Below are positions 58,173 to 64,000 of a DNA stretch of 64,000 bases, in pieces. Every line of letters starts with the position of its first letter. The stretch's first letter is position 1. The stretch lies in NCBI RefSeq assembly GCF_024734665.1, contig NZ_CP102931.1, forward strand, positions 5,392,001 to 5,456,000, given 5' to 3'. The DNA is from Variovorax paradoxus. Lineage in GTDB: Bacteria; Pseudomonadota; Gammaproteobacteria; Burkholderiales; Burkholderiaceae_C. The notes beneath the pieces are model-generated. The model searched no databases, was not told the DNA's origin, and worked only from the letters and a program-made list of their open reading frames with translations. Made by a program: the position numbers and the translations under genes.

Positions 58173-58484
58173 CTAGAGGAATCCCAAGTGAACGAACGCC
58201 AGCACCAGGGAGGCCCCAACGGCACCCCCGAGGCACGCCGACGTCACGATGTGCGCCCCGATCTCGATTCGCACAGTTTGCACCGCCGATCGCAGTCGCG
58301 GGACACGGCCAAGTGCGCGCTCGCATTGCCTCATGTGTTGAGCGAGGCTCGCGATGTCACTCTCGACCAAGTCAGTCGTGGTCGACCAGAGACCATTGGG
58401 CTTGCAGGCTTCCACGGTGAAGAATCCTTCAGCACTCCCCGGATTCAGTTCTTCCCAAACTTTGTCTTGGCGGCGGCCGCGCAA
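58173..58484 (-). CDS. Possible small protein with C-terminal membrane helix
   Basis: An open frame of 103 codons; its first part overlaps the end of the Cys-repeat gene, so a real start would more likely be internal, for example the Met at codon 51. The C-terminus (ACLGGAVGASLVLAFVHLGF) is hydrophobic and preceded by a plausible amphipathic region. No ribosome site or family match supports it. Weak call. Confidence 0.3.
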   Translation of the reverse strand: MRGRRQDKVWEELNPGSAEGFFTVEACKPNGLWSTTTDLVESDIASLAQHMRQCERALGRVPRLRSAVQTVRIEIGAHIVTSACLGGAVGASLVLAFVHLGFL

Positions 58485-58996
58485 CTTGCCTTGGCATCAC
58501 CCGACATACTGTCGCACTTCTCGGTAGCGACCTTGTAGTCGGCATCGCGCTTTGCCTGGCTGGCGTCGACCTTGGCCTCGCCGATTTCCTTGCCCATCTT
58601 GGCGTTGGCCAGCGCCTTGGTCTTGAGAGCCTTGGCCTCCTGGACGCACACGTCCTTGGCATTGCCCGACTGGTCATCGCACTTTTCCTTGGCGACTGCA
58701 TAGCCCGCCTCCGCCTTCGCAACCAGCACCTTGTTCCGGTCGCTGGACTTGGCGGTATAGCCGTACTCCAGTTCGGCGCGCGCAACTTTCTCCTTGGCCT
58801 TGGCTTCTTCGATGCAGATGTCCTTGGCGTTGTCAGCCAAGGGGACGCACGCCGCCTTGTCGGCCTTGACGTCCGCGCTGATGCGAGTCTTGCCGGCCTG
58901 ATACTCGGCCTTGGTCATCGTCGCTGCCTGTGCCATTGGCAGTACCAGCATGACGACAACAAGAATCGAAGTCTTGATATTGAAAAGCGTGTTCAT
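58445..58996 (-). CDS. Exported protein with three Cys-pair repeats
   Basis: A 183-residue protein with a signal peptide ending PMAQAA. The mature part is Lys/Ala-rich helix with a repeated unit holding a pair of cysteines: CVPLADNAKDICIEEAKAKE, CDDQSGNAKDVCVQEAKALK and CDSMSGDAKASCAAAAK. Each unit could form a disulfide-closed helical hairpin in the periplasm. Similar Lys/Ala/Cys proteins are known in Burkholderiales without a function. AAAGG lies before the ATG. It is not in an evident operon. Confidence 0.8.
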   Translation of the reverse strand: MNTLFNIKTSILVVVMLVLPMAQAATMTKAEYQAGKTRISADVKADKAACVPLADNAKDICIEEAKAKEKVARAELEYGYTAKSSDRNKVLVAKAEAGYAVAKEKCDDQSGNAKDVCVQEAKALKTKALANAKMGKEIGEAKVDASQAKRDADYKVATEKCDSMSGDAKASCAAAAKTKFGKN

Positions 58997-59871
58997 ATGA
59001 ACCTTTCTTTGCCCTCAAAATTGGAGGTCGCAATGCATTCACTGCGCGCTTGCTAAAGCGCCCGGCGAAGTGTGCAAGACCTTTTGCGCTCCATATTTGT
59101 AGACGGTCGAGTGCGTCTTGTCTGTGCGATACCAAACATGCGCGCCCGCTGCGACTTGGCCCTCCGCCTTGGTCAACGCGCGCTACGGCATAGAACGCAT
59201 GGCACGCCCCAGTCTTCGTCGGCGACGGCCTCGAGGCAATGCAGGGCAGTGAGAGTAGACGGGTGTTTGGACCAGACCCTGGGCGGTGACGCATAGGCGC
59301 GGTATCGAACAGACTTCGACGGCGGGCACTGCTACTGTGGCGTCATGTCCGATAGGTCCGCGCCATGTCACTTTCCTTGTTTGCTGCCGAAACTTTGGTC
59401 TTTGACTATCTGAATGGACGCATCCTGCCAAGCACACTGCACCGCGCTGTCGTGCTTGCAGTCGAGACAAGGCTGATGAACGGGTTGATGCCGGTACTGG
59501 ACGAAACCCTCTGCACCGAGATGGAAGACCATGCCACTGCACCGCCCCCCTTGGTCTCCTGAATCCGTCCTGAGAGCCACACAGGAACGCCTGAGAACTC
59601 TCCGCTCGCCATTGGGGAAACACGGGGACGCTCCCTCCGCGTGAGGGTCTTCCTCCGACCTCACTCGCAATCGCGGCCGATGTACAAAGATCTCAGTGAA
59701 AAGGCGCCAGGAACCGCGCAACATTGGGCCTGTGGAACATCGATCGTCCCCATGGCCGAGTCCGCTCGGCTTCCCGGCAAGAACTTGGCAGTCGACCCGT
59801 CGAACCCCTGCGACCGCGCAGCGTGATGCCTTCTTTCAAAAACAGGGGAGCGCAATGGCCGATCCGCCGCC
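58997..59871. other. Gene-poor stretch
   Basis: No convincing gene. A 65-codon plus frame at 59365-59562 (starting MSLSLFAAETLVFDYL) has no ribosome site or family match. Longer minus frames here have low-complexity, out-of-register composition. No repeats, tRNA or terminator was recognised. With the IS21 remnant nearby this looks like decayed DNA. Confidence 0.5.
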
Positions 59872-61224: not shown

Positions 61225-61269
61225 GATTCACTCCTAGGTGCTTGCTTGATATCAAGTTACCAAGGCGGC

Positions 61270-61307
61270 GCATTCCAGTCTGTTCGCTATCGAACAAACT
61301 GGAATGC
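61270..61307. promoter_or_regulatory. 38-bp inverted repeat containing the Crp/Fnr-cluster palindrome
   Basis: The inner 16 bases, TGTTCGCTATCGAACA (61281-61296), match the motif upstream of both Crp/Fnr genes. Flanks GCATTCCAGT and ACTGGAATGC extend the symmetry to 38 bases with only two mismatched pairs. It sits 46 bases before the DUF3309 start and 27 after the Crp/Fnr stop, so it may also act as an RNA hairpin. Confidence 0.65.
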
Positions 61308-61333
61308 ATTGCCTGGTTGTCCGACCGCTGGCG

Positions 61334-62026
61334 TCAATCCAGCGTGTCGGCGTAGGCCTTCCGATCGGCCGCGTAGCAGCCGCACGCTGCCGCTTCCAGG
61401 CCGCTGCGATCGAGCACCTTGAGATCGCCACGGTGGTAAGCGATCAGCCCGCTGTGCTGCAAGGCGTTGGCAGCCACGGTGATGCCTACCCGTCGCACGC
61501 CGAGCATGTAGGCCAGGAATTCATGCGTCACGCGAAAGCTGTCGCGGTGGGCGCGGTCCTGGCTCATCAGCAGCCACCGGGCCAGACGTGGGCCAATCTG
61601 GTGGAAGCGAAGACATGCGGCCGAGGTTGTCAGCTGGGCCATCAGCACGTAAAGGTAGCGGTTCAGCACGCGCTGCAAGGCCGCGCTGCGTTCGAGCTCC
61701 TTGCGGAAGGCACCCGCGTCGACGCGCCATGCCGTCCCCGCACCTTGCACAACCGCACGCAGGGGCGTTGTGCCCACCCCCAGCACGATTTGCGCGCCCA
61801 GCATGCCCTCGCGCCCGACCATCCCGACTTCGAGCTCGGGGCTGCCGCCGGTCAGCGTCAGCAGCGAAATGAAACCTTCCGTGGGGAAATAGGCGTAGCG
61901 CGTGTACTCGCCGGGCGAGCAGAGCACGTCGGCCAAGATCAATGGAGTGGGTTCGCAGATGGCGAGGAAGCGCCGCCGGTCTTTCGCGGGAAGCAGTTCG
62001 ATCAGATGGTTCTCGACGGCGGTCAA
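61334..62026 (-). CDS. Crp/Fnr-family transcriptional regulator, second copy
   Basis: Regulator with a cyclic-nucleotide-binding-like sensor domain (LCSPGEYTRYAYFPTEGFIS; GMVGREGMLGAQIVLG) and a C-terminal helix-turn-helix region (VTHEFLAYMLGVRRVGITVA). The TTG at 62024-62026 was chosen: GGAGGG lies five bases ahead and 230 residues is the usual length, while the longer frame adds only low-quality sequence. The 16-bp palindrome lies 60 bases upstream. No Cys cluster for an Fe-S center is seen. Paralogue of the next gene. Confidence 0.88.
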   Translation of the reverse strand: MTAVENHLIELLPAKDRRRFLAICEPTPLILADVLCSPGEYTRYAYFPTEGFISLLTLTGGSPELEVGMVGREGMLGAQIVLGVGTTPLRAVVQGAGTAWRVDAGAFRKELERSAALQRVLNRYLYVLMAQLTTSAACLRFHQIGPRLARWLLMSQDRAHRDSFRVTHEFLAYMLGVRRVGITVAANALQHSGLIAYHRGDLKVLDRSGLEAAACGCYAADRKAYADTLD

Positions 62027-62862
62027 TCTCGCCCTCCGGTGCGTTGGCAGTCCGAACAAGTCTGCAACCTGCGCCGAAAATCGACTGTTCGATAGCGAAC
62101 ACAACGTGCTGGCATCTGCAGATGCCGGTCGCCACCGCCCGGACAGCCTACGCCGCGACCCTGTCCGGCAGAAGCCGGTCGTATTCCTTCTTGACCACCG
62201 CATAGCATTCGCAGGTGCGTTGCTCCAGGCCTTGTCGATTCAGCTGAAATGTGACCGCGTGCGTAGCGGATCAGACCGGCCTCCTGCAGCTTGAGCGCCC
62301 CCTCGGTCACGCCCTCGCGGCGTACACCGAGCATGTTGGCGATCAGCTCCTGTGTCATCAGGAGTTCGCTTCCTTCCAGCCGGTCCAGGCTCAGCAGCAG
62401 CCAACGGCAAAGCTGTTGATCCAGGGAATGGTGTCGGTTGCAGACCGCCGTCTGCGCCATCTGCGTGATCAGCGCCTGGGTGTAGCGCAGCAACAGGTGG
62501 AGGATGGGGGGGCGCGTGAATTCGTCCTTGATGGCCTGTGCCCTCAGCCGGAAGCCCTGCCCAGCGCTTTGCACGACGGCGCGGCTGGGCGTGGATTCGC
62601 CGCCCATGAACAGCGAGATGCCGACAATGCCCTCGTTGCCAACCACGGCGATCTCAGCCGAGGCGCCGTTCTCCATCACGTACAGCAACGAGACGATGGC
62701 GCTGGTTGGAAAGTAGACATGGCTCAGTGCAATGCCCGACTCATACAACACCTGACCCAACGGCATTTCCACCGCTTCGAGTTGCGGCCGCCAGCGTTGC
62801 CATTCGGCATCGGACAGTGATGCCAGCAGATGGTTTCTTCTCGGATCGATCGCAACGGGCAT
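62023..62862 (-). CDS. Crp/Fnr-family transcriptional regulator, first copy, with apparent C-terminal frameshift
   Basis: Sensor domain (LGQVLYESGIALSHVYFPTS; AVVGNEGIVGISLFMGGEST) and helix-turn-helix (MTQELIANMLGVRREGVTEG) are intact. After LIRYARGH near 62250 the frame changes: the expected family end QLNRQGLEQRTCECYAVVKK is encoded in the next frame and stops at a TAG at 62148-62150. As read, the open frame continues to 62023 with unrelated residues. One extra or two missing bases near 62247-62249 explain it. The start has GGAGGA five bases ahead. The DNA-binding part should still be made. Confidence 0.8.
   Translation of the reverse strand: MPVAIDPRRNHLLASLSDAEWQRWRPQLEAVEMPLGQVLYESGIALSHVYFPTSAIVSLLYVMENGASAEIAVVGNEGIVGISLFMGGESTPSRAVVQSAGQGFRLRAQAIKDEFTRPPILHLLLRYTQALITQMAQTAVCNRHHSLDQQLCRWLLLSLDRLEGSELLMTQELIANMLGVRREGVTEGALKLQEAGLIRYARGHISAESTRPGATHLRMLCGGQEGIRPASAGQGRGVGCPGGGDRHLQMPARCVRYRTVDFRRRLQTCSDCQRTGGRD
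62086..62101. promoter_or_regulatory. 16-bp palindrome upstream of the second Crp/Fnr gene
   Basis: TGTTCGATAGCGAACA has perfect six-base arms around ATAG. It lies 60 bases before the TTG start and, if the frameshift upstream is repaired, in the short intergenic gap between the two regulator genes. Confidence 0.65.
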
Positions 62863-62948
62863 CGCGTCCTCCAGACGGCTCTGGAGATGAATCGGGATCC
62901 GGGTTCAGGCGCAGAGTCTTCTTCAGTATAGGCAGCGACGGCATTTTT

Positions 62949-62964
62949 TGTGCGCTATCGCACA
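62949..62964. promoter_or_regulatory. 16-bp palindrome upstream of the first Crp/Fnr gene
   Basis: TGTGCGCTATCGCACA has perfect six-base arms around CTAT, 86 bases before the start of the first Crp/Fnr gene. It differs from the other two copies at one position in each arm (G for T, C for A). Confidence 0.6.
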
Positions 62965-63292: not shown

Positions 63293-64000
63293 TCACTGGA
63301 GCGAGTGGCGCGGCAGTGCGATCGTGAAGACGCAACCGGTGCCGGGCACGTCCCGCACGGTCAATGTGCCGAAGTCCGCCTCGACGCTCTGGCGGGCGAT
63401 GGAAAGCCCCAGGCCCAGGCCCGACCGGTCATGACTGTGCTGGTTGAAGGGGGCGAACATCTTGGCGGCGATTCCCGGCGGCAGCCCTCCGCAGTGATCT
63501 TCGACTTCGATCAGGACATGCTCGCCAAGCTCATAGGCCTTCAAGGCGATGTCGGTGTGCGGGTGCGTGAACTTGAATGCGTTCTGCAGCAGGTTTGCCA
63601 ATGCAGCAAGCAGCAGCTCCCGGTTTCCCCGGATGGCCAGCAGGGAGTCGACGGGTGACACCTCGAAGGCGCAACCCGCGGCGCTTGCAACGAGCTGGGC
63701 TGCGGTTTCAGCTTCCTTGATGAACAAGGCCACGGAAAATGTCTGTCGCTGCTCCGGCGCGCCGCTGCGCACCTCGGCGAGCGCCCGGCTGATCAGCTCG
63801 CCCATTGCAGACAGGCTGCGCTTCAGCACGGCTCCGGTGGCGCCGCCCACCGTCATGTTGCCGAGTTCGAGGGCGTGAATCGCAAGGGTTGCCGTGCCCA
63901 GGGAATTGCGCAACTCGTGAACCAGGAACCCGAAACGCTCCGTCGCGTCGAGGCTCTGCTGGTGGGCGATTTGCGTATCCCGCTGAAAGCTGAATTCGGT
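63293..64000 (-). CDS. Sensor histidine kinase, N-terminal part outside window
   Basis: C-terminal 235 residues of a kinase. The H-box region reads GFLVHELRNSLGTATLAIHA (phospho-acceptor His after LV), followed by an N-box LANLLQNAFKFTHPHTD, G1 EDHCGGLPPG, F-box MFAPFNQHS and G2 GLGLGLSIARQS, ending in FTIALPRHSLQ. The frame is open to position 64000, so sensor domains upstream are unseen. It may phosphorylate the lone receiver at 60212. Confidence 0.92.
   Translation of the reverse strand, partial: TEFSFQRDTQIAHQQSLDATERFGFLVHELRNSLGTATLAIHALELGNMTVGGATGAVLKRSLSAMGELISRALAEVRSGAPEQRQTFSVALFIKEAETAAQLVASAAGCAFEVSPVDSLLAIRGNRELLLAALANLLQNAFKFTHPHTDIALKAYELGEHVLIEVEDHCGGLPPGIAAKMFAPFNQHSHDRSGLGLGLSIARQSVEADFGTLTVRDVPGTGCVFTIALPRHSLQ

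Follow-up and report, generated by a model that had tools for sequence, protein, structure and literature searches.

The palindromes that precede a pair of Crp/Fnr-type genes in Variovorax paradoxus are, in our judgement, quite probably the operators of an autoregulated class II activator regulon of stress and envelope genes, under the control of a crp2-type Crp/Fnr subfamily with an operator of its own. In the mechanism that we propose, the crp2-type regulator encoded in the island binds the palindromes (consensus TNTGTDCGNTANCGHACANA) as a dimer at approximately -41.5 relative to the predicted transcription start, where a -35 box is normally found; from there it would act in the class II manner, activating by recruitment of RNA polymerase. 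Its targets within the island would be crp1, DUF3309, a histidine kinase, collagen-like lipoproteins, small proteins and crp2 itself; CsbD, BON, Ysc84 and hemerythrin genes would be added to these in other genomes. The motif, its conservation, the spacing to the -10 element, the co-occurrence with the regulator and the kinds of genes downstream are all read from the sequences themselves.

The window, by which we mean the whole 64,000-nt stretch of DNA that was analyzed (NZ_CP102931.1:5,392,001-5,456,000), was searched with the pattern TGTKCGN4CGMACA. A preliminary description had placed three palindromes with perfect arms at 61281, 62086 and 62949, and the 16-mers were found again at these places. 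Its distance of 46-87 bases to the start codons is about right, with 56 free bases for DUF3309, 86 for crp2 and 59 for crp1, the last presuming our own reading of the TTG at 62026 as the start (a longer crp1 ORF begins at 62203, upstream of the crp1 operator). The window holds four exact matches, whereas 300 first-order Markov simulations gave 0.05 on average and never more than 1; the fourth (23697, genome 5415697) overlaps a long ORF and its arms are unequal by one letter. The 7.29-Mb genome has 13 exact places, versus one for the reversed pattern. Five of them fall within 3.6 kb (genome 5453281-5456910, from window position 61281 to 910 bases beyond the window end), two further copies just past the end joining the three palindromes above. 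When 13 sites were placed at random 200,000 times, no such cluster arose. Instead of being frequent throughout the genome, as might have been the case, the motif is scarce and its copies are grouped. A sixth exact site (genome 3575668) belongs to a second crp cluster, and another (758447) has a DoxX gene on one side and a LysR-type gene on the other. The other six (1247619, 1975618, 4405323, 5415697, 5657599 and 6101183) overlap ORFs and are read as chance; the site at 1975618 is additionally 50 bp ahead of an antiporter-like gene. When the operator and the -10 element were searched as a composite in the same genome at two mismatches, 57 oriented matches were obtained versus 37 for reversed controls, hence most of these matches are noise. 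At one mismatch the composite identified DoxX (758420) and 6559526, which are possible candidate targets.

The features of the island are collected in the table below. In the extended region (locus L014) the gene order is 183-aa gene, 65-aa gene, receiver protein, 97-aa ORF, DUF3309, crp1, crp2, 110-aa ORF, histidine kinase, 73-aa gene, a small protein related to the 65-aa one, collagen-like lipoprotein and groES/groEL (both of the latter identified by eye). Nine sites in this region are within two mismatches of TGTDCGNTANCGHACA, at 59123, 59296, 61281, 62086 and 62949 of the window and, past its end in the same numbering, at 64522, 64895, 65162 and 65995. They precede the 183-aa, 65-aa, DUF3309, crp1, crp2, kinase, 73-aa, small-protein and lipoprotein genes; the receiver protein, the 97-aa ORF and the 110-aa ORF have no preceding site at this threshold. 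The weaker copies at 59123 (one mismatch to the refined motif) and 59296 (two mismatches) were not listed in the preliminary description. The uninterrupted ORF of crp2 is 62023-62862, and the C-terminal CECY stretch that is conserved in 78 of 80 homologues lies in another frame of the window gene, be it by true mutation or by an assembly error.

Predicted operators, -10 elements and genes of the island (window coordinates)
Feature	Position	Strand	Remarks
Candidate target, 183-aa gene	58445..58996	-	no Pfam match
Weaker operator, 1 mismatch	59123..59138	-	toward 183-aa gene; TACAAA at 21 nt
Weaker operator of 65-aa gene, 2 mismatches	59296..59311	+	
Predicted -10 TACTGT of 65-aa gene	59333..59338	+	21 nt past operator
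65-aa gene	59365..59562	+	no Pfam match; relative with preceding site beyond window end
DUF3309 gene, 52 aa	61066..61224	-	PF11752, E 6.5e-24
Predicted -10 TAACTT of DUF3309	61254..61259	-	21 nt past operator
Predicted operator of DUF3309	61281..61296	-	TGTTCGATAGCGAACA, read toward gene
crp1, Crp/Fnr-type regulator	61334..62026	-	start TTG 62026 is our reading
Predicted -10-like CAGACT of crp1	62059..62064	-	21 nt past operator
Predicted operator of crp1	62086..62101	-	TGTTCGCTATCGAACA; symmetric, unlike many crp1 homologues
crp2, Crp/Fnr-type regulator	62148..62862	-	frame-shifted near 62240-62255
Predicted -10 TATACT of crp2	62925..62930	-	18 nt past operator, not 21
Predicted operator of crp2	62949..62964	-	TGTGCGATAGCGCACA
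Histidine kinase, cut by window end	63293..64000	-	predicted operator beyond end, genome 5456522

The second cluster, 1.9 Mb away, contains a further crp pair, a collagen-like lipoprotein and a kinase that shares 99.7% identity with that of the island, and sites are present there as well. A unit made up of operator, promoter and histidine kinase is found in both clusters (L014:9291-10539 and L018:3111-4358). Its two copies are 97.4% identical over 1249 bp, and the match ends beside the operator. Collagen-like lipoproteins are found in both clusters (L014:11708-11944 and L018:1004-1423), each with a two-mismatch site upstream.

The sites are conserved upstream of crp2 homologues. The best 80 of a larger number of crp2-type loci were fetched, 79 of which had enough upstream sequence (L048 was dropped). 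Within these 79, the site was exact in 18, carried one mismatch in 37 and two in 15, and was absent from nine. The motif at two mismatches or fewer thus precedes 70 of 79 crp2 loci, compared to 2 of 79 for the reversed pattern, both at two mismatches. When perfect inverted repeats upstream were counted without bias, GTGCG-N4-CGCAC came out on top, in 19 of 80 stretches versus none of 77 control stretches. The alternative outcome, that the motif would be missing in front of orthologues, did not hold for most crp2 homologues. Alignment of one site per locus at no more than one mismatch (64 loci, the rest dropped) returned the consensus TNTGTDCGNTANCGHACANA. Among relatives, 15 of 27 crp2-type genes have a site at two mismatches or fewer within 250 bp, versus 4 of 27 for the reversed control; the remaining 12 have no such site in the 250 bp (one lacked upstream sequence).

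The spacing between operator and promoter bears on the mode of action. A -10-like hexamer (at least four of the six letters of TATAAT) is found exactly 21 nt past the 16-mer in 27 of the 64 crp2-homologue promoters, compared to a mean of 1.76 over 70 offsets. The next-best offsets are 0, with 11 occurrences that belong to the extended arm, and 19, with eight. No -35-like peak exists at the usual distance from the -10 in these 64 promoters. The -10 hexamer spans -12 to -7, and a hexamer in this register 21 nt past the operator places the dyad center near -41.5. This predicted center is close to the position of class II Crp/Fnr activators, and the two features of such promoters, a center near -41.5 and the lack of a -35 box, are encountered here by way of the spacing to the predicted -10. 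The crp2 promoter of the window is the exception, being off by 3 bp. The local sites tell the same story at the offset that the other genomes had indicated: TAnnnT is at offset 21 in five of nine (DUF3309, the 73-aa gene, the small protein, the lipoprotein and the 65-aa gene), and in one at most at any other of 60 offsets. With a background of 0.0016 per position, we calculate a chance of about 1e-12 for five in nine. The kinase promoter has TAACGA at 21 nt. A larger count gave 57 of 200 oriented sites with a -10 at offset 21 (mean elsewhere 4.2; next 20, at offset 35), which is partly circular because many loci had been picked with the -10 in the pattern; we rely on the 27 of 64 and the five of nine instead.

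From this geometry we infer that the effect is activating. The same protein could act on the same operator in the opposite sense, the bound dimer standing in the way of polymerase at its own promoter, and perhaps at others, in negative autoregulation. The crp2 promoter lends itself to this reading, as it has a good -10 (TATACT) just 18 nt from the operator; the distance is 17-18 nt in its own genome and in three others (G002, G003 and G023). With an 18-nt spacing the dyad would come to about -38.5 and extend into the -35 region. Against repression are the spacing fixed at 21 nt across the 64 homologous promoters and the five of nine local sites, the missing -35-like peak, and the weakness of most of the -10 elements, as is expected of activator-dependent promoters. 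On balance, we regard repression as rather unlikely.

The operator differs from those of the known systems, as had been noted for the CRP and FNR consensus sequences; the 64-promoter consensus falls outside both classes. The E. coli CRP operator is TGTGA-N6-TCACA, and CRP acts at class II promoters. The predicted system shares with it the 16-bp length and phase, the TGT...ACA ends, the dyad near -41.5 and the Crp-type helix-turn-helix, and in a hand alignment crp2 keeps the residues at CRP R180 and E181. The consensus differs in having C instead of A at position 5 and G instead of T at position 12 (63 and 61 of 64), position 4 is relaxed, the CG step and the TA center are fixed, and the crp2 residue at CRP R185 is Glu. 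The operator of FNR, ANR and DNR is TTGAT-N4-ATCAA. Family, dyad symmetry and the -41.5 placement are common to both, whereas the half-site is not. FNR-type oxygen sensors possess an N-terminal Fe-S cysteine cluster, and no such cluster is present among the conserved cysteines of 77 crp2-type proteins. These cysteines (141, 152, 218 and 220 in L022 numbering), together with H144-H145, are conserved in 76 or 77 of the 77, and they are possibly part of a redox or metal sensor. As regards cAMP binding, the mark of CRP proteins that respond to cAMP, the corresponding pocket region is conserved within the subfamily as well. Distant profile similarity to solved Crp/Fnr chains was seen (3dv8; 4byy/4cyd/3r6s, presumably GlxR; NtcA; DNR) with E of 4.8e-09 to 1.2e-04, and there was no close solved relative, the single-sequence structure search giving one chain, 2pqq, at E 7.7e-04. 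NCBIfam has no model for crp1, crp2 or DUF3309. No description of the operator was found in the open-access papers searched, which include few subscription papers and do not establish absence from print. PMC8510549 gives matrices for FNR, CRP, DNR, NnrR and MalR.

The island encodes two candidate binders. Both crp1 and crp2 have the Crp-type helix-turn-helix (PF13545) above cut-off, and the cyclic-nucleotide-binding-like domain (PF00027, cut-off 27.5 bits) scores above it in crp2 (29.6) and below it in crp1 (26.2). The recognition helix reads RREGVTE or close to it in most readable crp2-type proteins, and mostly RRVGIT or RRVGVT in the crp1 type. A strong symmetric site lies within 260 bp upstream of 66 of 102 crp2-type genes (a set that includes the loci that trained the matrix) and of 10 of the 52 genes of the crp1 type; among random windows, 5.2% contain one. 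We infer that crp2 is the binder. The preliminary description had both paralogues bind the motif; this holds up well for the crp2 type and poorly for the crp1 type, for which asymmetric variants are seen. Binding of the operator by crp1 would be a candidate less certain than binding by crp2, as the crp1 promoters elsewhere are often asymmetric.

The asymmetric pattern TGTDCG-N4-CAGACA (at most one mismatch) precedes 21 of 52 crp1-type and 7 of 102 crp2-type genes, compared to 10 of 52 and 3 of 102 for its changed control. Exact matches in 80 loci number 14, ten of them with a -10-like hexamer at 21 nt, whereas three changed patterns gave 0 to 2. The form TGTGCG-N4-CAGACAGTC occurs upstream of crp1-type genes in L023, L025, L035, L075, L249 and others, with the -10-like element at 21 nt. 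One could imagine that the crp2 homodimer takes the symmetric TGTDCG-N4-CGHACA and governs a cross-class stress and envelope regulon, that a crp1-crp2 heterodimer or a crp1-biased form takes the asymmetric sites, and that feedback operates through operator asymmetry. We consider this extended scheme unlikely, and its heterodimer component is a guess.

The distribution of the motif among genomes was compared to that of the regulator. Among 369 genomes sampled from the class, 30 contain the composite, with 53 matches in all versus a single match for the reversed control, and crp2 homologues at E 1e-40 are encoded in 41 of the 369. Both are present in 22 genomes, the composite only in 8, crp2 only in 19 and neither in 320 (Fisher p 6.6e-18, a test that treats related genomes as independent, which is not quite so). 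Hence crp2 is encoded in 22 of 30 composite genomes, compared to 19 of 339 others, and 19 of the 41 crp2 genomes have no composite match. With the same reservation on independence, 41 relatives give 12 with both, 1 with the motif only, 4 with crp2 only and 24 with neither (p 2.6e-6; crp2 at E 1e-50 in 16 of 41), and the genus alone gives 9, 1, 3 and 12, respectively (p 9e-4). Exact copies of the refined motif number 18 among the relatives, spread over 13 of them, versus 4 for reversed controls. Fourteen 3-kb loci were fetched from other genomes and queried with 11 island proteins: 8 of the loci encode such a protein close to the site, and 6 encode none of the 11. Judging by both counts, some of the exact sites are fortuitous or mark unrelated targets. 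One genome (G289) has 11 composite matches, and the 10 listed fall within 92-166 kb of one contig. In the 96 kb fetched from it there are 18 sites at a matrix score of at least 20, and for 13 of them a -10 follows at 21 nt on one strand or the other, compared to 0.05 in letter shuffles. The 75-kb stretch rich in composite sites (C1:92254-166350, L235-L239) lies beside CsbD-like, hemerythrin-like, DUF3309-like and crp genes, and looks like a stress-gene island.

A different regulator of the island, such as one that works together with the receiver protein or with the kinase, might bind the palindrome, the crp genes being merely neighbors and targets. Kinase and receiver protein are indeed in the same cluster, and crp2 is missing at E 1e-40 from 8 of the 30 genomes with the composite. 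We hold this to be quite improbable, since the 16-bp TGT...ACA dyad with the CRP phase and the -41.5 center is Crp/Fnr-like, the motif precedes crp2 homologues in most of the 79 loci, and the Pfam matches of the receiver protein include no DNA-binding domain. That the island sites are chance similarities, a repetitive element or terminator-like hairpins, as the composite match in a repeated tract of G039 (L208) and the six of 13 exact genome sites that overlap ORFs might suggest, is ruled out for practical purposes by the clustering, the conservation and the fixed -10 spacing.

For the proposed crp2-type activator, the genes downstream of the sites suggest a stress and envelope theme. Sixty ORFs were placed after sites from 75 candidates, some being shadow frames, and the raw Pfam counts, which have no background, are CsbD 6, Crp helix-turn-helix 5 (two of these the window's own crp1 and crp2), BON 4, GGDEF 3, DUF3309 3, Ysc84 2 and response regulator 2, with one each for hemerythrin, KaiC, DUF2171, DUF3096, DUF3185, Transgly_assoc and others. 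A table of downstream families, a lead only as it is without background and mixes shadow frames, has the collagen-like lipoprotein in 4 of 4 loci and the receiver protein in 3 of 4. Of 30 DUF3309 loci, 23 were locatable, and a site at no more than one mismatch precedes 5 of 15 in crp2 genomes and 0 of 8 elsewhere, numbers too few to be significant. DUF3309 appears among released proteins, its function unknown, in PMC12502724. The earlier proposal that the crp genes and DUF3309 are under a Crp/Fnr-type operator gains support from the conservation before crp2 homologues, the co-occurrence with crp2 and the class II geometry; its regulated set of the two regulators and the membrane peptide is too narrow, the predicted regulon being wider.

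For an apparently uncharacterized subfamily of Crp/Fnr proteins, an operator, a mode of action and a regulon are predicted. DUF3309, CsbD, Ysc84, BON and other small proteins whose function is unknown would be brought under one predicted switch. The small background of the composite in the 369 genomes makes the targets predictable in other genomes, and these predictions are directly testable.
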